A stretch of DNA of 64,000 bases, from NCBI GenBank assembly GCA_031292625.1, contig JARLGU010000006.1, positions 1-64,000 of the forward strand, written 5' to 3'. The position numbers and the translations under genes are program-made. Below are positions 5,157 through 59,171 of this stretch, piece by piece (within the stretch, counting starts at the first letter, position 1; each line of letters starts with the position of its first letter). Below the pieces are notes generated by a model. The model had not been told where the DNA came from. It saw only the letters and a program-made list of their open reading frames with translations, and did no database searches. The stretch comes from Capsulimonadaceae bacterium. Its GTDB lineage: Bacteria; Armatimonadota; Armatimonadia; Armatimonadales; Capsulimonadaceae.

Positions 5157-6273
5157 TCATTTAATGTGCTCCTTAACGAGGATAGCTGCTTGCCTGGGTT
5201 TGGCGGCGATGTTTTTCGCCCCTGCAATTCGCAAGAGGGCGATGACGGCGTTGCGACAGGCTGCCATGGCTTGCGGCGCGGATCTGGTTCTGACCTGGGA
5301 GCGGTCTTCGTCGAACGTCACATCGCGCACATAATGCAGTCTGTTTTCGATGGACCAGTGCCCCGCCAAATGCTTGCAGATCGCTTGAGTTTAAGCTCTC
5401 GCGCTGTCATGCTTGTGACAGCGTAGCTGGTTTCTTCGGTGGCTTTGTCTCCCCGCTGGACTCGCCGCATGATTTTGAAGACCTGTGCCAGCTTTGGCCA
5501 GTCGAGGAACGCGGGAACCGAGCTATTGCCTTCGATCCCGAGCGCGACCGCGATCGTGCGTTGCTCAATACGGCCATGAGCCTTTTCCGTAAATGTGGCT
5601 GATTTGATTCTCGCACCCCTGAGAGTGAACAAAAGCTCTATGTTCTGGTAAAGCGTGGGCTGATTATCCTTGACCTGAACGAAGTAGTGCCCCATTTTTC
5701 GACGACTTTCTTGCATACATCGCGCTGGCAGTAGAGGGCGTCGCCAGTAAAAATAACACCACGTAAGTCGAGACGATCGAGTAAATCACAGGCAGCAGTG
5801 AGTTCGCCTTCCTTATCGATAGCGCCGATTTGCGCAAGGGGTAAACCCAGTTGATGCGTAAACATGGCCACGAGATGGACACGAGGGAGCAGCTCGCCAT
5901 GGATACCGCGAGCTTCTCGCCATCGATAGAGCAGGACTTGCGCTTGCCCACAGGCAAGAATTGGCTCATCCAGGAGGACAGGGCAGACTCGAAGGCGACC
6001 AAATTAACGCCCTTAAGGACATTATGGATGCTGGCATGGCAGGGCGTCGAACGACGAAATCCGAGCAACGCACCGATCTCGTCGGCGTGCTCGCGTCCCC
6101 ACTGGGCCGATTGCAAACTTGCAGCGTGCTCCGCAGAGCATCGCGCAGACCCAAAGAGCCAGTAGCGAGGCCAATGGATGGACGGTGTTATACTGGCGAT
6201 GGTCTGGAGATCCGCGATAACGCGGCATAGAGTGGTTCAGGTGATGATTGGGCCATGCTTCCACGATCCCCAC
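5157..6273 (-). pseudogene. ISAs1-family transposase, multiply frame-shifted
   Basis: Consecutive pieces of one DDE transposase lie in different minus-strand frames. N-terminal HPLASLLALWVCAMLCGA (to ~6130) is followed by EIGALLGFRRSTPC and CSIDGEKL (6116-5930), then AIDKEGELTAACDLLDRLDLRG and TGDALYCQRD (5871-5720), VQVKDNQPTL (5716-5400) and C-terminal [16 protein letters not shown] (5369-5157). These match the H-repeat/ISAs1 order, including the IDG (D1), GDALYCQ (D2) and HW-x-IEN (E) motifs. At least four frame changes make it inactive. I could not define the terminal inverted repeats with confidence. It lies just inside the intact tRNA-His. Confidence 0.85.
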
Positions 6274-6967: not shown

Positions 6968-8860
6968 GTGACTACAACTACCAACCATTTCGAGCGCGGC
7001 AACGACTTCTATGCGAGTGGCGACTTTGACGCAGCCGTCGAAGCGTACCGCCTGGGGCTCGATGACGACAATCTGGACAAAGCGCTCATTCACAATAATC
7101 TCGGATTGGCTCTCTGTCAAACGGGCCGTTGCGAGGAAGGGCTCGCCCAATTCTTTGAAGCTCTTGCCCTCGTGCCCGATGACCCGGATCTCCTCAACAA
7201 TGTCGGTGAAGCTCTTGTGGAACTCGGGCGCTCCGGCGAGGCGATCTCGATACTGACGCGCGCGTCCCAAATGTGCCCCGACGACGCAGAAATTCACGCG
7301 GCGCTTGGCCGCGCCTACAGCCGCGAGGGCCATTACGCAGAAGCACTTGCGCAGTTTACGCGGGCCGTCGAGCTAGATCCAAGCGACATCGAATCCGCCG
7401 AGATCATCCGTCGCATGAATCTCCTAAGCGACCAGATGGCCACGATCGCCGGACCGGAGACGGATGCATGGTCCTTCGCCCCCCCACTCGAACCCTTGCG
7501 CGCAATAGGACAGGATGAGGGTCCTGCGACCGCGCCGGATCGTATTGCGGAGGATCTGAATACAGATGCCATCCTGGCCCAGCGACAAGCCGCCGAGCGG
7601 GCCGAGCGAGAGGCCGCTGAACGTGCTGCGCGAGAGGCCGCCGAACGAGCTGAGCGAGAGGCAGCTGAACGTGCTGCGCAAGAGGCCGCCGAACGGGCTG
7701 CGCAAGAGGCCGCCGAACGGGCTGAGCGAGAAGCCGCCGAACGAGCCGAGCGAGAAGCCGCCGAGCGGGCCCAGCGAGAGGCCGCCGAGCGGGCCGAGCG
7801 AGAAGCCGCAGAGCGGGCCGAGCGAGAAGCCGCAGAGCGGGCCGAGCGAGAAGCCGCCGAACGAGCCGGGCGAGAGGCCGCTGAACGTGCTGCGCGAGAA
7901 GCAGCCGAGCGGGCCGAGCGAGAAGCAGCCGAGCGGGCCGAGCGAGAAGCCGCAGAGCGGGCTGCGCAAGAGGCCGCAGAGCGGGCCGAGCGAGAAGCCG
8001 CAGAGCGTGCTGCGCAAGAGGCCGCAGAGCGTGCTGCGCAAGAGGCCGCAGAACGGGCCGAGCGAGAAGCCGCCGAACGAGCCGCGCGAGAGGCCGCTGA
8101 ACGTGCTGCGCGAGAGGCCGCAGAACGAGCCGCGCGAGAGGCAGCCGAGCGGGCCGAGCGAGAAGCCGCAGAGCGTGCTGCGCAAGAAGCAGCCGAACGT
8201 GAAGCCCTGGAAGCCGAGCAGATTGCCAAGCCGTCCGCGAAAATTGAGGCGATCACTGGGGATGTCGAAGAGCTAGGTGCGTCCCAATCGATCAACCCTA
8301 TAATGAGTGACGATTTGATCGAAATCGACCCCCAAGCCATAAACGTCGAGTCTGCCCCACCCTCCGAACAGGATAAAGTTGACATCATCCGTCCCTCCCA
8401 AATGCACCTCGTGCCAATCGATGCCAGAGTTGTCCCCGTTTGGGAGCCCGTAATCGAGATCGTAATCGAGCCGTCCCAGCAGGCGGCGCAAGTGTCGCGG
8501 CACAAACATCTCTTCCCGCGTTCCGTGCTCCGAGCGGTCGCAACACTCACAAGCAAGCGCACACAGGGATCTACTCACCATACGGTGCAGCTACTCTGGC
8601 GCGTTGCCGGACTCGTCGCGCTCTTTGTAGGCGTGCTTCTTCTGCTCCTGTATTTGACCGGCAGCCTCAACGAATACCTGCCCGAAGACATGCGCATGTC
8701 TAACGCTCAGCAAGCCGTGCGAGTGCAGATCGCCCGGAATGCGCCGGATCGAGGCGCCACAAGCCGCCGCACTTTTTCCGCCAATGGTTTCCCCTCCAAT
8801 TCTAACTACCCCGCCCAAAGCGAATCCGCCGAAATTCCTGGCAGGAACGGCCCCGTTTGA
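6968..8860 (+). CDS. TPR protein with long charged-helix repeat and C-terminal membrane anchor
   Basis: The product has 630 residues from a GTG start. Residues 1-155 are four or so TPR units (GNDFYASGDFDAAVEAY, NNLGLALCQTGR, ALGRAYSREGHYAEAL). Residues 209-416 consist of 26 successive 8-residue units of the type AERAEREA; a linker follows, then one membrane helix at ~541-566 and a ~65-residue tail. The 8-residue period with E and R at i,i+4 spacing fits a stable single alpha-helix or a long coiled coil acting as a spacer. The cytoplasmic TPR end could recruit partners to the membrane. No enzymatic motif is present. Repeat number is probably variable between strains. Confidence 0.8.
   Translation: MTTTTNHFERGNDFYASGDFDAAVEAYRLGLDDDNLDKALIHNNLGLALCQTGRCEEGLAQFFEALALVPDDPDLLNNVGEALVELGRSGEAISILTRASQMCPDDAEIHAALGRAYSREGHYAEALAQFTRAVELDPSDIESAEIIRRMNLLSDQMATIAGPETDAWSFAPPLEPLRAIGQDEGPATAPDRIAEDLNTDAILAQRQAAERAEREAAERAAREAAERAEREAAERAAQEAAERAAQEAAERAEREAAERAEREAAERAQREAAERAEREAAERAEREAAERAEREAAERAGREAAERAAREAAERAEREAAERAEREAAERAAQEAAERAEREAAERAAQEAAERAAQEAAERAEREAAERAAREAAERAAREAAERAAREAAERAEREAAERAAQEAAEREALEAEQIAKPSAKIEAITGDVEELGASQSINPIMSDDLIEIDPQAINVESAPPSEQDKVDIIRPSQMHLVPIDARVVPVWEPVIEIVIEPSQQAAQVSRHKHLFPRSVLRAVATLTSKRTQGSTHHTVQLLWRVAGLVALFVGVLLLLLYLTGSLNEYLPEDMRMSNAQQAVRVQIARNAPDRGATSRRTFSANGFPSNSNYPAQSESAEIPGRNGPV
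7592..8215 (+). repeat. in-frame 24-bp minisatellite, exactly 26 units
   Basis: 624 bases equal 26 units of 24 bp, each coding an 8-residue unit (AERAEREA, AERAAREA, AERAAQEA and single variants such as AERAQREA, AERAGREA and a final AEREALEA). Units differ mainly at residues 5 and 6 and at silent positions. Because each unit lacks stops in several frames, long spurious frames are open on both strands here. Confidence 0.95.
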
Positions 8861-32381: not shown

Positions 32382-32454
32382 GGCCCGGTAGTCTAGCGGT
32401 TATGACGCCTCCCTTTCAAGGAGGAGATCACGAGTTCAATTCTCGTCCGGGCTA
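32382..32454 (+). tRNA. tRNA-Glu (TTC anticodon)
   Basis: A 73-base cloverleaf. The acceptor GGCCCGG pairs with CCGGGCT (one G-T pair), the D arm contains GTCTAGCGGTTATGAC, the anticodon arm is CCTCC-CTTTCAA-GGAGG, and the T arm is ACGAG-TTCAATT-CTCGT. The discriminator base is A and the CCA is not encoded. Divergent from rpsO. Confidence 0.96.
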
Positions 32455-32769
32455 TATTTTAAATACTGCCCGTGCATAAGCAGTAACTTATGCACATTTT
32501 ATGGAGTATTTATTCCCTGCGAGCTGAAGCCTCTCTGCCCTTTTGACTGTTGAAAGGGCCAATAATGCAGAACTGGTCTCCTCCTTCCGGAAATTCTACG
32601 GCGAATATTCGAGCCATGGAAGTGCGCGTCGTCCTTGTGGACAACGCGCCAAAAGCGCTGGCTCATCGATGACCAGGCGCGCCCTCTTTCGCCAAGAACA
32701 TGCGGTATGCGCACATTCTTCAGCTAGATGGCTGCAGAGGAGTTGATGCCCGCGTCCCCCCTCTTGGAG

Positions 32770-33010
32770 CGTGTGTAAGAGATCGAACGGCTTTGCTAAG
32801 ACGGCTCCCCGGCCGCCGTGGCCGTTTTTGAAAAAGGGCCGTCACAGCCGGTTCACTGCTTCACTCTGTGCGCTGGGATAGGACGCTGGCGGCAAAAGGC
32901 CGTACGCGGGTTGACGAAGCATCGTAAACCACCGCAGTGAACGAGGCGCGTGCAAAAAAATGCCCCGGCGGCACGAGCCGTCCTGAATCTCTCTCGCAAT
33001 ACGCCAGTCT
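32770..33010 (+). repeat. long intergenic repeat, copy A (candidate structured RNA or mobile element)
   Basis: The outer blocks are nearly identical to the inverted copy B at 57738-57917. Block 1 (32770-32844) contains AAGACGGC, GCCGTGGCCGTTTTTGAAAA and GGGCCGTC. Block 2 (32940-33010) contains AACGAGGCGCG, CCCCGGCGGCACGAGCCGTC and CTGAATCT. The ~95 bases between are longer than in B and little conserved. Block 1 folds with GACGGC/GCCGTC outer pairing and block 2 with CGGC-tcgt-GCCG. No reading frame is shared by both copies. The remainder of 32455-33184 shows no gene. Confidence 0.75.
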
Positions 33011-33184
33011 ATTACAAACACTCTAGGCGATAAAACGTCCCGTATCGCGTCCCGACCAGGCACGTCCATACGCGGAGGATGAGATAATTGCCCACCGGCC
33101 GCAGAAGGGGGCCTTTGTCCTGACCAGTTTACGGTAACCACTCGCTTAACGCACGGAGAGCGTAAGCCCTGAATTTCATTTGGG

Positions 33185-34975
33185 CTACTCCCCCTCTTCG
33201 CCCCCGGTAAACTCATTGAACGGCGAAGATGCCCCCTCGATCCACTTGTTGCTGCGGCGAAACCACAGGTGCGTGTTCGATGGATCGAAAGCGAAGACGA
33301 TCCAGTTCGTTCCAACCGCACGCTCCTTGTAGTTGACGGGTACCGTATATTGCTGCTGAGTGGTGATCGGCACATTTATCATTTGATTGAATGGTACGAA
33401 CAGGTGCGTGACCGGATCTTGGACGGGTTGAGGGTTTGTCTGGTTCTGGTACTGATAGCCGGTGGGCACGGTTCTAAACCTGGTCTCCATTCGCGTTCGC
33501 GCGGCATCACGGCACTCGCGAGTTCCAATCGAGACCCAGGTCTTGCCCGTCTTCTGGTCCTCGTAGGTATAAAATTCCGGTGCGGTAGGGAGGGCAGTCG
33601 ATAGCTCGCTGACAGGCTCCGTCTGGCCTTGCAGCCCTATGGCGAGCTGAGCCCATTGTTTGCCGCCCCAATAGAAGGTGCGAGAAACATATTTGCCCGA
33701 TGTTGCGTCAAAACCTCCGATCAAGGCCATGAACTGCCCTTTGTCCACATTGTTTATCACGACTCGAAGCGCGGTCGGATCGATATCGCTGCGCCCCTGA
33801 ATCGAGTCTGACACAAGGAGTTCGTTCGTAACGCCGCCAAATGCAAGTTGGGTCACGACACCTGTTTGAGTGTAGTAGCTTTGCTTGCTGATATCGAAAT
33901 CGCTGTCGTAAATCATTCCCTGATCCGAATGTAGATCGCCTTTGTGAACGCATCGCACTCCGGGGTGATCTTTAACGAAAGCAAGTATTGCCGGCTTGAG
34001 TGCGAGATAGCAAAGAGAGGCCTGGCCATCCTGCGCCAAAAATGAGTCCTTGCTCTGTGCCGATTTTGCCAGCGCCGCAACCACGTTGTCACCGGCAACG
34101 AGCGTTAGCCCCAACAGGTCCGGGTCGTTGGCGCATCGTCTGACAAGATAATTGATCGCATCCCCGTTTCCAGCCTTTGCGAGCAGAGCCGCGGAAACAT
34201 CCTTGGCGAGGTTGTCAATCGGATCGTCTGGACTTACCGGAATGTTATAAACCTCTTTGGCTGCAGCCGCGATTCCAGAATTAAACTGGCCCCAATCCTC
34301 GAACGGAATGTTGTTCAGCTTGAACTGGTCTCGAACTTGATGCTGGGCATCGTCAATCCGGTCCTTAAACCACTTGCGCTCCGTTAAGTCCGAGATTTGG
34401 TCCGTGCTTTGATCGAGCGATAGCTGCGCGTAATACGTGAGAAATAGATCGAGCGCCGTACTTCGCAGTACCGTAGGATCTTGGTTCGAGTCTCTGCCCT
34501 GTAGCTTTGTCCTCACCACGGAGTAGGCAAGCATTCCTTTCGCCCGGACATCCTCCGGTCGATCCTCTATGCTCAGCCGAAATTGTGAGGCTGCGCCATC
34601 GTAATCCTTCGCAATTAACAGTTTGATGCCGGTTTGGTAGTGTTCGTCAGGGAAGATCGTGTTCCGATTTACGAACAACAAGACCGCGATGCTCAACAAG
34701 GCGACACCGAGAACCGCGAGTAAGATGACCCTCAAATTCACGTTGAGGCGCGACGCAGCTGCACCGTTAGCTTGATCGCTTTTCGATCTGCCAGGTTCGC
34801 CTTTGTTTCCAAACAAGCTGGAAACGCTCAAGCGCATACGCTCTGCCGGATGTTTGGACGCTGACGGCTGGGCGTTGGCAGGCGCCGCGGCCGCTGCTTC
34901 GACCTTGGCGCCGCAGCTCTCGCAAAATTGTGAGTCCGGCGCAAGTTGATTGCCGCACTTAACGCAGAAAGACAT
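33185..34975 (-). CDS. zinc-ribbon, single-pass membrane protein of unknown function
   Basis: 596 residues from the ATG at 34975 (AAGGATGG eight bases upstream). Residues ~3-24 form a zinc ribbon (CVKCGNQLAP, FCESCGAK), ~85-105 a membrane helix (VILLAVLGVALLSIAVLLFV), and the remainder a large extracytoplasmic part. The first section after the helix (YQTGIKLLIAKDYDGAASQF) looks TPR-like; the distal half is beta-rich and unrecognised. The ribbon should be cytosolic and the bulk periplasmic. Last gene of a three-gene operon, 183 bases after its neighbour. Confidence 0.7.
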   Translation of the reverse strand: MSFCVKCGNQLAPDSQFCESCGAKVEAAAAAPANAQPSASKHPAERMRLSVSSLFGNKGEPGRSKSDQANGAAASRLNVNLRVILLAVLGVALLSIAVLLFVNRNTIFPDEHYQTGIKLLIAKDYDGAASQFRLSIEDRPEDVRAKGMLAYSVVRTKLQGRDSNQDPTVLRSTALDLFLTYYAQLSLDQSTDQISDLTERKWFKDRIDDAQHQVRDQFKLNNIPFEDWGQFNSGIAAAAKEVYNIPVSPDDPIDNLAKDVSAALLAKAGNGDAINYLVRRCANDPDLLGLTLVAGDNVVAALAKSAQSKDSFLAQDGQASLCYLALKPAILAFVKDHPGVRCVHKGDLHSDQGMIYDSDFDISKQSYYTQTGVVTQLAFGGVTNELLVSDSIQGRSDIDPTALRVVINNVDKGQFMALIGGFDATSGKYVSRTFYWGGKQWAQLAIGLQGQTEPVSELSTALPTAPEFYTYEDQKTGKTWVSIGTRECRDAARTRMETRFRTVPTGYQYQNQTNPQPVQDPVTHLFVPFNQMINVPITTQQQYTVPVNYKERAVGTNWIVFAFDPSNTHLWFRRSNKWIEGASSPFNEFTGGEEGE

Positions 34976-55269: not shown

Positions 55270-57606
55270 ATGTATTCGATCGTCGATCTGACCAGAGCGC
55301 GCATCGTCGCGTCCCCCCAACTCACGCCTGTTGAAACTCAGGCTATTACGATGCTCGTGGAGGAAGTCGAGCGCCGAACCGGGCTCACGTGGCAAGTATC
55401 GCCCGGCGACGGCGAAGGTCCCGCCATAAGCATCCGGCGCGCGTCCGGCAACGGTCCCGCCGACGGATTCCGGCTCACCACCTCGCCCTTAGGCGTCGAG
55501 ATCCTGGGCAACGACGAACGCGGAACGCTGTTTGGCGTAGGACGATTGATCCGTGAGCTTCGCTGGGCACGTTGGAGCGCCGGAGTTCCGGACGGATTGG
55601 AGATCGAAACGAGTCCGGCCTATCCTCTGCGCGGTCACCAAGTCGGCTACCGGCCCAAGGTAAACACCTACGATGGATGGACGCCGGCGATCTTCGAGCA
55701 ATATGTACGAGACCTGATTTTGTTCGGCTGCAACGCGATCGAACTGATGCCGCCGCGCACCGATGATGAAGACGATTCGCCGCATTTCCATCTCCCAAAG
55801 CTGCAGATGATGGTCGAAATGGCCCGGATCGTCGTTAAGTACGGCCTTGACCTATGGGTATGGTATCCGGCGCTCGATGGCAATTATGCGGACCCGGCGG
55901 TTGCCGAACGCGCTCTCGCGGAGTGGGAGAACGTCTTGCGCCGCTTGCCTCCGATCGCCGCGCTGCACATTCCCGGCGGCGATCCCGGCCACACGGAACC
56001 AAAGGTTCTGTTCGCGTTCCTGGCGCAAGCCGCCGCCGTCCTGCGACGCCATCACGCTTACGCGCAGATATGGCTCGCGCCGCAGTGCTTCGACGCCGCA
56101 TGGCACGATCAGTTTATTTCGCTCATCGAAGGCGACGTCCCGTGGCTGCACGGCATCGTCTATGGCCCCTGGACCCGCGTGTCGCTGCCCGATCTTCGAT
56201 CACAGGTTCCGGCACGTTATCCGGTCCGCTACTATCCCGACGTGACGCACTCGACGCACAGCGAGTTCACGGCGCCGCAATGGGATGTCGCGTTCGCAGT
56301 AACGCAGGGGCGGGAGATCATCAATCCGCAACCTGTCGCGACGCGCAAGATTTTCGAGGCCTCGGCCGCATCCACGATCGGATTCGTCACCTACTCGGAA
56401 GGCGTTCATGACGATCTTAACAAGGCAGTGTGGAGCGGCGTTTCGTGGGATCCAGACGTAAGTACCGTCCAGATTGTACGCGAATATGTCCGCTGCTACA
56501 TCTCGTCCAAACTCGAAGAGCCGCTCGCGCAGGCGATTTTCGCTCTTGAGGAGAACTGGCGCGCCCCGCTGATTGCAAGCAGCAACCCTGGCGCGACGCT
56601 TCGACGAATCCAGGCGATCGAGAGGGACGCGGCGCCGCAAATGCGGCTCAACTGGCGGTTCCAGCAAATTCTCTACAGGGGATACTATGACGCCTACGTT
56701 CACCAACGGCTAATCGCCGAAACCGCTCAGGAGCAGCAGGCGATCGGTCACCTCCGGCAGGCGCAGCGTACCGGAACGGCCATTGCCATGACGCAGGCGC
56801 GCGCCGCGCTCGATCTAGCGATCACGCAGCCGCCGGCGCAGGATCTGCGCGCGCGCGTGTTCGAGCTCGCCGAGGCGCTCTACCAGAGCATCCGGATGCA
56901 ACTCAGCGTCGACCGGTACGCGGCCATCGCCGTCAGCCGCGGCGCGACGCTGGATACGGTCGATAGCCCGCTCAACAACCGCGTTTGGTTGGGCCGTCAG
57001 ATCGATTCGATTCAGGCGCTTCCCACCGAATCCGAGCGTCTAGCCGCAATCGATGCCGTGCTCGGCCGGTCCGATCCGGGCCCCGCCGGGTTCTACGACG
57101 ACCTGGGCAACCCGTTCGCACAGCCACATCTCGTACTCCAGGGGCCTGGATTTGACGAAGACCCTGGCGCATACCGGTCCGTGCGCTACGGCTACACGTG
57201 CTTCTCGGGCGGTTTTGTCGGACGCACGACACGTGACGCAATCGATCCTGACGGCGCGGCCTCGTTCCTGACGACGCCCGCTGCCTGGTGGACGTGGGCG
57301 GAGACGCGCTACGAAACGCCGCTAACGATGTATTACGACCGCGTCGATCCTACAGCCAACTACCTGCTGCGCGTCGTCATCGCCGTCGAGCGCACCGGTC
57401 GGCCGTTCCGTCTGATCGCGAACGACGAGATCGAAATCCACCCCTGGATAAGCCGGCCTCGTCAGATCCAGCGCCTAGAGTTCGAGATCCCCAAAGCCGC
57501 CGTGGCATCGGGTACGCTCACGCTTCGCTGGTACCTCCAACCAGGCGGCGGCAGCTTCGATTCTAGCATGGCGATCTCGGAGGTGCTTCTCATCCGCAAG
57601 GAGTAA
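55270..57606 (+). CDS. putative glycoside hydrolase with GH20b-like N-terminal domain (alpha-glucuronidase-like)
   Basis: 778 residues from the ATG at 55270. Residues 1-~115 match the small alpha/beta domain found before GH20, GH67 and GH115 barrels (GVEILGNDERGTLFGVGRLIREL). A TIM barrel follows from ~118 (LRGHQVGYRPKVNTYDG, NAIELMPPRTDDEDDSPHF, LDLWVWYPALDGNY, LHIPGGDPGHTEPKV, YAQIWLAPQCFD). A helical domain and a C-terminal beta domain close it. No signal peptide, so it would act on imported oligosaccharides. Catalytic acids are not certain. Family membership is tentative; the context with PL8 and an esterase supports uronic-acid release. Confidence 0.65.
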   Translation: MYSIVDLTRARIVASPQLTPVETQAITMLVEEVERRTGLTWQVSPGDGEGPAISIRRASGNGPADGFRLTTSPLGVEILGNDERGTLFGVGRLIRELRWARWSAGVPDGLEIETSPAYPLRGHQVGYRPKVNTYDGWTPAIFEQYVRDLILFGCNAIELMPPRTDDEDDSPHFHLPKLQMMVEMARIVVKYGLDLWVWYPALDGNYADPAVAERALAEWENVLRRLPPIAALHIPGGDPGHTEPKVLFAFLAQAAAVLRRHHAYAQIWLAPQCFDAAWHDQFISLIEGDVPWLHGIVYGPWTRVSLPDLRSQVPARYPVRYYPDVTHSTHSEFTAPQWDVAFAVTQGREIINPQPVATRKIFEASAASTIGFVTYSEGVHDDLNKAVWSGVSWDPDVSTVQIVREYVRCYISSKLEEPLAQAIFALEENWRAPLIASSNPGATLRRIQAIERDAAPQMRLNWRFQQILYRGYYDAYVHQRLIAETAQEQQAIGHLRQAQRTGTAIAMTQARAALDLAITQPPAQDLRARVFELAEALYQSIRMQLSVDRYAAIAVSRGATLDTVDSPLNNRVWLGRQIDSIQALPTESERLAAIDAVLGRSDPGPAGFYDDLGNPFAQPHLVLQGPGFDEDPGAYRSVRYGYTCFSGGFVGRTTRDAIDPDGAASFLTTPAAWWTWAETRYETPLTMYYDRVDPTANYLLRVVIAVERTGRPFRLIANDEIEIHPWISRPRQIQRLEFEIPKAAVASGTLTLRWYLQPGGGSFDSSMAISEVLLIRKE

Positions 57607-57737
57607 GGCAGACGATAACCTTCGCTCTGCCACGGATACGAGAGTCTCACGTACAGCCCCACCCGTGCGATCTTAGCTCCTCAAAGGAGGGATAATCTCT
57701 ACGCATGACCAATTTGTAAGGCTAAACAAGGTGCGTC

Positions 57738-57917
57738 ATTAATCGGCGTTGCGTGAAAGATTCAGGACGGCTCGTGCCGCCGGGACGATTTTTTGCCCGC
57801 GCCTCGTTCTCGGCGTCGATCGTTAAGCCGTGAAAGCGCTATGACGGCCCTTTTTCAAAAACGGCCACGGCTGCCGGGAAGCCGTCTTACAAGGCCTTTC
57901 GATTCTTTACACACTGT
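57738..57917 (-). repeat. long intergenic repeat, copy B (inverted relative to copy A)
   Basis: 57738-57808 and 57842-57917 match copy A (33010-32940 and 32844-32770) in reverse orientation with roughly 80-90% identity. The middle is ~33 bases here against ~95 in A. Read on the plus strand it contains GATTCAGGACGGCTCGTGCC, a T-rich run, then GACGGCCC, TTTTTCAAAAACGGCCACGG and AAGCCGTC, and ends 45 bases before the AraC-family start. It fills most of the 57607-57962 gap; the first ~130 bases show only a CTCC-GGAG hairpin. Confidence 0.75.
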
Positions 57918-57962
57918 CTTAGCGATTCCGGACCGCATCGAGTCGCCTTTGCTACGAAACCA

Positions 57963-59171
57963 ATGCAATCATCATCCGGCAAATCAGGGCTAGAAAGCTT
58001 GTTCTGGAACGGGATGTTCTGGAATACGCTTATCTACCCGGAGCTCTCGCTCGAAGCTCCCGGCGTATCGAGCCTGCTCGATCTGCGCGCCGAGGACGAC
58101 GAATGTCCCGAGTTTGTCGCCTGCCTCTGCCTCGACGGCTACGCCGATTTGCCCGTGGACCGCAAGCCGGATATCATCGCCAACACCGCCGATGCGATCG
58201 TAAGCGCCCTGCCAGAAACCTATTGTAAGCGACTGGGCTTCACGCACACCAATGCGTTCTATTTCTGCGGCTCGTCGGAAAGCATCCCGAGCGCCAAATT
58301 GATTGAAACGCTGGATGCGACGCGGTGCGCGGTTGCCTCCTCGTCAGGCCTCGGAGCAACCCTGGGCATCGCGTTCGTCCGTGAGCGCACGACGGCCGGA
58401 TTTCAGCACGCCGCGCAGTTTGCCGTCGTCGCGCAGCGCCGGAAGATCCAGCTTGGCGCGGGCGCAACTTACGTCTACGAAAAGTCCTTTCTTTCCACCA
58501 CGTTTTCGCTCTCGATCCACTGGCGTCTCAGCCAGCAGCTCAACGGTCTCGTCAGAGCCTCCGATCCTGCTCAGGTAAACAGGGTTCTCGCGCAGGTGTC
58601 GGCGGTTCTGTTCGGCGAAAACTATCTGCCACTCAACAGCTTGCGCCCCATCCTCCAGAGTTACGTAATCCTCATGGCGCAGTCCGCCAGAGACGCGGGC
58701 GCGGGCGATGACGAGATCACGGCGGAAACACAGGAATACGTCAACCGAATCGCGGTGACGTATGACTACACGGATCTGAAGGGCATCCTGGAGGAAGTCG
58801 CCCACTCCTTCACGCAGCATGTACGCAACCGGTTTCATTGCGCATCAAGCCGCATGACAAGCCGCGCCGACGAAATCATACGCGCATCCCTCGCCGATCC
58901 CGATCTCGCGCTTCATGCAATCGCGAGAACCATGGACGTCAACGCCTCATACCTCAGCCGCCGCTTCAAACAAGAGAAGGGCATCGGCCTGAGCAGCTAC
59001 ATTAGCGTCCAGCGAGTCGATTGGGCCAAACGCCTCCTGCTCGATCGGAAGCTGAGCATCACGCAGATCTCCCACGATGTCGGCTTCGGCTCGACACAAA
59101 ACTTCGGACGCGTTTTTCGATCGATCGAAGGCTGCAGTCCGTCGGAATATCGCGCAAAACTTCCCCGGTAA
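57963..59171 (+). CDS. AraC-family transcriptional regulator with long N-terminal domain
   Basis: 402 residues. The first ~290 residues are an unrecognised sensor region with several Cys (ACLCLDGY, YFCGSSESIPS). The C-terminal double helix-turn-helix includes LHAIARTMDVNASYLSRRFK and ITQISHDVGFGSTQNFGRVF. It lies directly downstream of repeat copy B and upstream of the two Fe-S reductase-like genes, and may control them. No clear ribosome-binding site precedes the ATG. Confidence 0.85.
   Translation: MQSSSGKSGLESLFWNGMFWNTLIYPELSLEAPGVSSLLDLRAEDDECPEFVACLCLDGYADLPVDRKPDIIANTADAIVSALPETYCKRLGFTHTNAFYFCGSSESIPSAKLIETLDATRCAVASSSGLGATLGIAFVRERTTAGFQHAAQFAVVAQRRKIQLGAGATYVYEKSFLSTTFSLSIHWRLSQQLNGLVRASDPAQVNRVLAQVSAVLFGENYLPLNSLRPILQSYVILMAQSARDAGAGDDEITAETQEYVNRIAVTYDYTDLKGILEEVAHSFTQHVRNRFHCASSRMTSRADEIIRASLADPDLALHAIARTMDVNASYLSRRFKQEKGIGLSSYISVQRVDWAKRLLLDRKLSITQISHDVGFGSTQNFGRVFRSIEGCSPSEYRAKLPR

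Follow-up and report, generated by a model that had tools for sequence, protein, structure and literature searches.

A modular family of miniature inverted-repeat elements with terminator-like arms, dispersed between the genes of a Capsulimonadaceae bacterium

The window, that is, the whole 64,000-nucleotide stretch of DNA analysed here, comprises positions 1-64000 of contig C12 in an incomplete genome assembly (5.77 Mb, 65 contigs) of a Capsulimonadaceae bacterium, and holds two copies of one repeat family. Copy 1 (32764-33026, plus strand) lies between a tRNA gene (32382-32454, plus strand) and a minus-strand gene ending at 33185. Copy 2 (57725-57920, minus strand) has on one side a plus-strand gene ending at 57606 and on the other a gene starting at 57963, assigned to the AraC-type regulators by reading its translation and not by a family search. 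An Rfam search of the window returned two tRNAs only and no match for the element, and no promoter-like site is seen in or beside either copy. Elsewhere in the window, the pnp protein has its best matches, at 71-80% identity, in metagenome-assembled Armatimonadetes; a broken transposase remnant made of overlapping short ORFs, ISAs1-type by eye, occupies 5157-6273 on the minus strand, with a weak PF01609 match at 5695-5883 below the cut-off; and 7575-8231 is a long repetitive stretch, Ala/Glu/Arg-rich by eye (AERAEREAAER-type) and possibly encoding a coiled-coil protein. The features of the two copies and their surroundings are as follows.

32764 to 33026, plus strand: copy 1, a complete single-unit L-U-R element including the flanking triplets TTG and TAG (nhmmer with the L, U and R models)
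32767 to 32779, plus strand: left terminal inverted repeat of copy 1, GAGCGTGTGTAAG (from the listing of terminal inverted repeats of complete copies)
32810 to 32829, plus strand: L-arm hairpin CGGCC-GCCGT-GGCCG, then TTTTT, terminator-like, reading into the element
32880 to 32956, plus strand: internal unit U, one copy, with a 93-bp period when tandem (nhmmer)
32954 to 32974, minus strand: R-arm hairpin GTGCCGCCGGGGCAT, then a minus-strand T run, terminator-like, reading inward from the right
33011 to 33023, minus strand: right terminal inverted repeat of copy 1, ATTACAAACACTC on the plus strand (same listing)
33084 to 33168, plus strand: decayed right part of a second element, MITE-B, beside copy 1 (79% identity to MITE-B consensus positions 123-207)
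57725 to 57920, minus strand: copy 2, an L-R element without most of U, its L end facing the AraC-type gene at 57963

The original prediction, made from the letters of the window, described two inverted copies, and both are present. The two high-identity blocks that it saw are evident from the core words GGCGGCACGAGCCGTCCTGA and GGCCGTTTTTGAAAAAGGGCCGTC, each occurring exactly twice in the window with no mismatches, against at most 0.01 expected; the stems it named (GACGGC/GCCGTC and CGGC/GCCG) are present, and the unequal middles are explained by the copy at 57.7 kb being without most of a 93-bp unit. Likewise, the AraC-type gene said to follow one copy starts 42 bases beyond copy 2, and the element, held to be non-coding, has no ORF or coding signal. 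Both shared blocks continue outward into terminal inverted repeats (TIRs). The earlier observation is thus real and greatly understated.

The element is built as L-U(n)-R; its two arms, L and R, form long imperfect inverted repeats with TNA followed by GAGYGTGTGTAA at their ends. The L arm GACGGCTCCCCGGCCGCCGTGGCCGTTTTTG resembles R in reverse complement, GACGGCTCGTGCCGCCGGGGCATTTTTTT, which makes the whole element a long imperfect palindrome with U at its centre. Parsing with three nucleotide HMMs built for L (132), U (93) and R (73) yielded 129 elements, 69 of them L-U-R and the others mostly with 2-4 units or partial. U, a 93-bp unit, is single in most copies and present up to six times (C25:1402-2118 holds six units), with a unit-to-unit spacing of exactly 93 bases in 54 of 56 pairs. 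Element length is about 190-720 bp, and some elements are fused head to tail. The units would grow or shrink in number through recombination or replication slippage. A number of contigs start within unit arrays, and assembly has therefore probably lost longer ones; contigs also end inside arrays, such that short-read assemblies of this group lose sequence there. The pattern L-R is found in only one of the 129 scored elements, copy 2 of the window, which is an internal-deletion derivative and an unusual form.

The prediction had proposed a search of the genome for further copies. A right-end 22-mer, allowed up to 3 mismatches across the whole genome, gives 104 forward and 76 reverse matches (180 together) and none when read backwards as a control, and blast with copy 1 gives at least 53 matches across the genome. 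The stretches sampled for detailed study (1.62 Mb, later about 1.80 Mb) were partly picked for holding copies, and densities were taken from four long contigs only; these carry 53 elements in 1.21 Mb, or 43.7 per Mb, from which a genome-wide total of about 250 copies is extrapolated. Homologues are thus plentiful in the element's own genome, and none is found outside it: a pattern search of 291 Armatimonadota genomes (its own and 290 others) returned the family in its own genome only, and a DNA search in 40 relatives did not find it. Matches with 2-3 mismatches in other Armatimonadota genomes get weak scores from the R model and none from the L model. Outside Armatimonadota the search covered plasmid, phage and viral collections, and no copies were found in the plasmid, phage and IMG/VR sets. 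At the starts of contigs C48 and C47 (L232, L234), element copies lie just past an apparent 5S rRNA gene and its terminator; the 5S gene was read from sequence, and these contig starts are probably two rRNA operons.

We find that the family is a non-autonomous transposable element, a miniature inverted-repeat transposable element (MITE), modular like the pneumococcal BOX. Complete copies carry the TIRs GAGCGTGTGTAA on the left and GAGTGTGTGTAA from the right, adjoining TNA, and the TIR motif has 101 matches genome-wide as compared with 5 for a reversed control. A check of the element edges for target-site duplications, also suggested by the prediction, reveals a 3-bp TNA duplication across the family, in which the middle base N agrees in 14 of the 17 automatically scored copies against 26% expected (P = 2e-6); in copy 1 it is degenerate (TTG / TAG). 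In one empty/filled pair, the flanks of C24:6676-7122 match an uninterrupted sequence at C20:306244-306345, and the element is bordered by TAA at either end; TAC stands at the empty site, so the match is a diverged paralogue. Copies are also nested in MITE-B at its TAAGAG (CTTTGTAAGAG) site, at L008 and on C21 (C21b:13667-14015). The family therefore shows TIRs, a target duplication, no transposase gene, short length and many copies, as MITEs do. The prediction had left a choice between an undescribed structured RNA family and a small non-autonomous mobile element; the latter is borne out by the TIRs, the TNA duplication, the paralogous empty site, the insertion in another MITE and the approximately 250 dispersed copies.

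A transposase supplied in trans and acting on the TIRs would have moved the copies. When the genome-wide TIR matches of the incomplete 65-contig assembly were read by eye for an autonomous partner, no two lay inverted at a distance of 0.8-3 kb, and none of the five transposase loci examined matches the element's TIRs. A 3-bp TNA duplication is known for some IS5 groups and alone is only suggestive; neither a transposase in cis nor common TIRs, either of which would mark an IS5-type derivative, was found, the PF01609 loci of the genome being without the element's TIRs. Autonomous partners of MITEs are often lost, and the source element of the transposase may likewise have been lost or may not have been assembled.

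MITE-B, the second MITE family of the genome, is about 210 bp long with the TIR TAGGACTTTCGCTT, and was seen at L008, L054, C24:12859 and C46:75774 besides the remnant at 33084-33168 of the window. Its TIR is common to an insertion sequence at C41:1-1118 that has a PF01609 transposase, so MITE-B has a partner in the genome. Like the element studied here, it carries inward GGCC-N-GGCC-ATTTTT hairpins at both ends (read from sequence); unlike it, it has the TIR given above and no tandem unit. L054 is a chimera of the two, produced by recombination. Among the repeats of this genome there are also two CRISPR-looking arrays, C55:254-2881 of the fetched stretch (L221) and C34:30839-32170, with repeats GCTTTAATCGCACCTTTGAGGAATTGAAAC and GTTTCAATCCTCTCCGCTCCCG.AGGAGCGGAGCAAC.

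The arms of the element have the sequence of an intrinsic terminator, a GC-rich hairpin and then a T run. A fixed-rule scan detects this combination reading inward in 64 of 82 L arms and 43 of 71 R arms, and in the opposite direction in 5 of 82 and 1 of 71, respectively; mononucleotide shuffles give 3-8%. The short copy of the window passes the scan only via an alternative L-arm fold. By the orientation of the arms, a polymerase entering from either flank would meet a terminator-like signal, and the arms may act as terminators for both directions of transcription. Across an alignment of 62 single-unit copies, covariation is strongest between the columns that form the outer stem pairs of the L hairpin, 47-61 and 48-60 (first pair: CG 47, TA 10, AT 1, GC 1; second pair: GC 49, TA 10), and compensatory cells number 22 against 4 in shuffles, a count reached by none of 300 shuffles. 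Most of these changes belong to one haplotype, found in 10 of 62 copies, whose sequence is close to the R hairpin read in reverse complement; a single event, or conversion of one arm by the other, could have produced them. The other helices tested show nothing comparable, and the unit shows no such signal. A pseudoknot within the unit (ACGATG/CATCGT with GGCGG/CCGCC) was rejected, its pairing being no better than in shuffles.

Where do the copies lie with respect to genes? Genes were called with a simple coding-potential finder written for the purpose, which missed the short rpsO and is blind to RNA genes, and whose starts are approximate and stops exact for called genes. By these calls coding sequence makes up 83% of the DNA, yet 91 of 93 elements are intergenic. 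Expectations for context were drawn from the same sampled stretches as the copies: of the 79 elements with both neighbours, 19 occupy a convergent gap, where 12.6% would be expected (P = 0.004), and 10 a divergent one, and the median distance is 60 to a neighbouring gene's 3' end and 150 to a 5' end. A gene's stop codon stands at the junction in 13 of 47 complete copies, as compared with 6-9% of eligible TNA-type stop-plus-intergenic sites; because the TIR itself can supply a stop, some of these genes may be truncated. Relative to co-directional neighbours orientation is random (27 versus 23). Behind genes, copies would be tolerated and in some cases perhaps of use, and elsewhere most would have been purged; purging would by itself also yield the bias toward convergent gaps and 3' ends. 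Best supported is the view of a MITE family spread by trans-mobilisation and surviving where its putative terminators are harmless. Taken jointly, a TIR-armed MITE with 93-bp units and a TNA duplication, moved in trans, with inward terminator-like arms and tolerated between genes, is in our judgement very probably the right explanation. We propose, from the sequence of the arms, that the host tolerates the element as a portable terminator working in both directions, and perhaps makes use of it.

A further question is, do copies persist because neighbouring genes use them? A domesticated set of double terminators or insulators, kept by selection, would agree with the inward signals in most arms, with the enrichment in convergent gaps and at gene stop codons, and with the copies adjoining the 5S gene, as read from sequence, at the starts of two contigs. 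Yet the same bias would follow from the purging of harmful insertions, some junction stop codons may stem from truncation of genes by insertion, and orientation relative to co-directional genes is random; we regard domestication as possible and rather unlikely. A stronger version, in which insertions prefer TNA at stop codons and are kept genome-wide as working two-way terminators of many genes, appears to us doubtful; if true, a transposon has rebuilt much of one bacterium's termination landscape.

That the copies are transcribed members of a structured non-coding RNA family, functioning through a fold with a variable number of 93-nt domains, is a very improbable reading. Copy 1 indeed folds better than its dinucleotide shuffles (z -3.1), the L-arm stem has compensatory changes, and units are nearly always spaced by 93. 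However, RNAalifold finds no consensus fold for 158 units, candidate unit helices pair no more than shuffles do, and the fold of copy 2 hardly beats chance (z -1.3); single-strand folding is, moreover, what long inverted repeats give anyway. The lack of an Rfam match, of a promoter-like site at the window copies and of the family in the relatives searched stands against it as well, as do the TIRs and target duplications. Thus, of the covariation suggested as a check of the shared blocks, there remain compensatory changes in the L-arm hairpin by its T run, mainly in one linked haplotype, and the undescribed RNA family of the original prediction is not upheld. We consider it next to impossible that the unit is a protein-coding minisatellite, 93 being a multiple of three and tandem units then encoding a 31-residue repeat: few new nonsense changes arise in two of the minus-strand frames and one of the plus-strand frames, and one plus frame has a small synonymous excess, but the consensus unit contains a stop in that plus frame, codon-position variation does not reach significance among 62 single-unit copies (p = 0.29) and most copies have one unit only, on which grounds a coding unit was rejected.

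The MITE reading thus makes this a new family of a well-known kind of mobile element, and among the papers searched none pairs miniature inverted-repeat transposable elements with Armatimonadetes. Its features are covered one at a time by BOX, SPRITE and BrickBuilt (PMC3049150; PMC4596501; review PMC10969869). BOX of Streptococcus pneumoniae shares the A-B(n)-C build with a variable middle module (here L-U(n)-R, n = 1 to 6), TIRs, a target duplication, more than 100 copies, over-representation between convergent genes and a stable predicted fold (PMC3049150); its authors note that the convergent-gap bias can be read as a sign that the elements are mobile and parasitic (PMC3049150). The element, compared by build, differs in its 93-bp unit, terminator-like arms on both sides, TNA duplication and phylum. 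BrickBuilt, a MITE of Porphyromonas gingivalis, also has a leader and a tail around a tandem repeat, is always intergenic and is reported by its authors to have IS5-like TIRs (PMC4596501). Its unit is 23 nt long, it has 19 copies and it has been shown to carry promoters (PMC4596501), whereas the element described here has a 93-bp unit, about 250 copies and a consistent 3-bp duplication, with no promoters seen at the window copies. SPRITE of S. pneumoniae is a dispersed, terminator-resembling repeat near the 3' ends of convergent genes (PMC3049150); it is a single stem with a U-rich tract, whereas the element combines TIRs and a tandem unit with two inward hairpins, one at each end. As similar inward hairpins also occur in MITE-B, a family of this genome that differs in its TIRs, it becomes testable whether terminators protect mobile elements or excuse them. 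The build of BOX, arms and a countable middle module, is thus repeated in a distant phylum and joined to terminator-like arms of a sort otherwise known from SPRITE.
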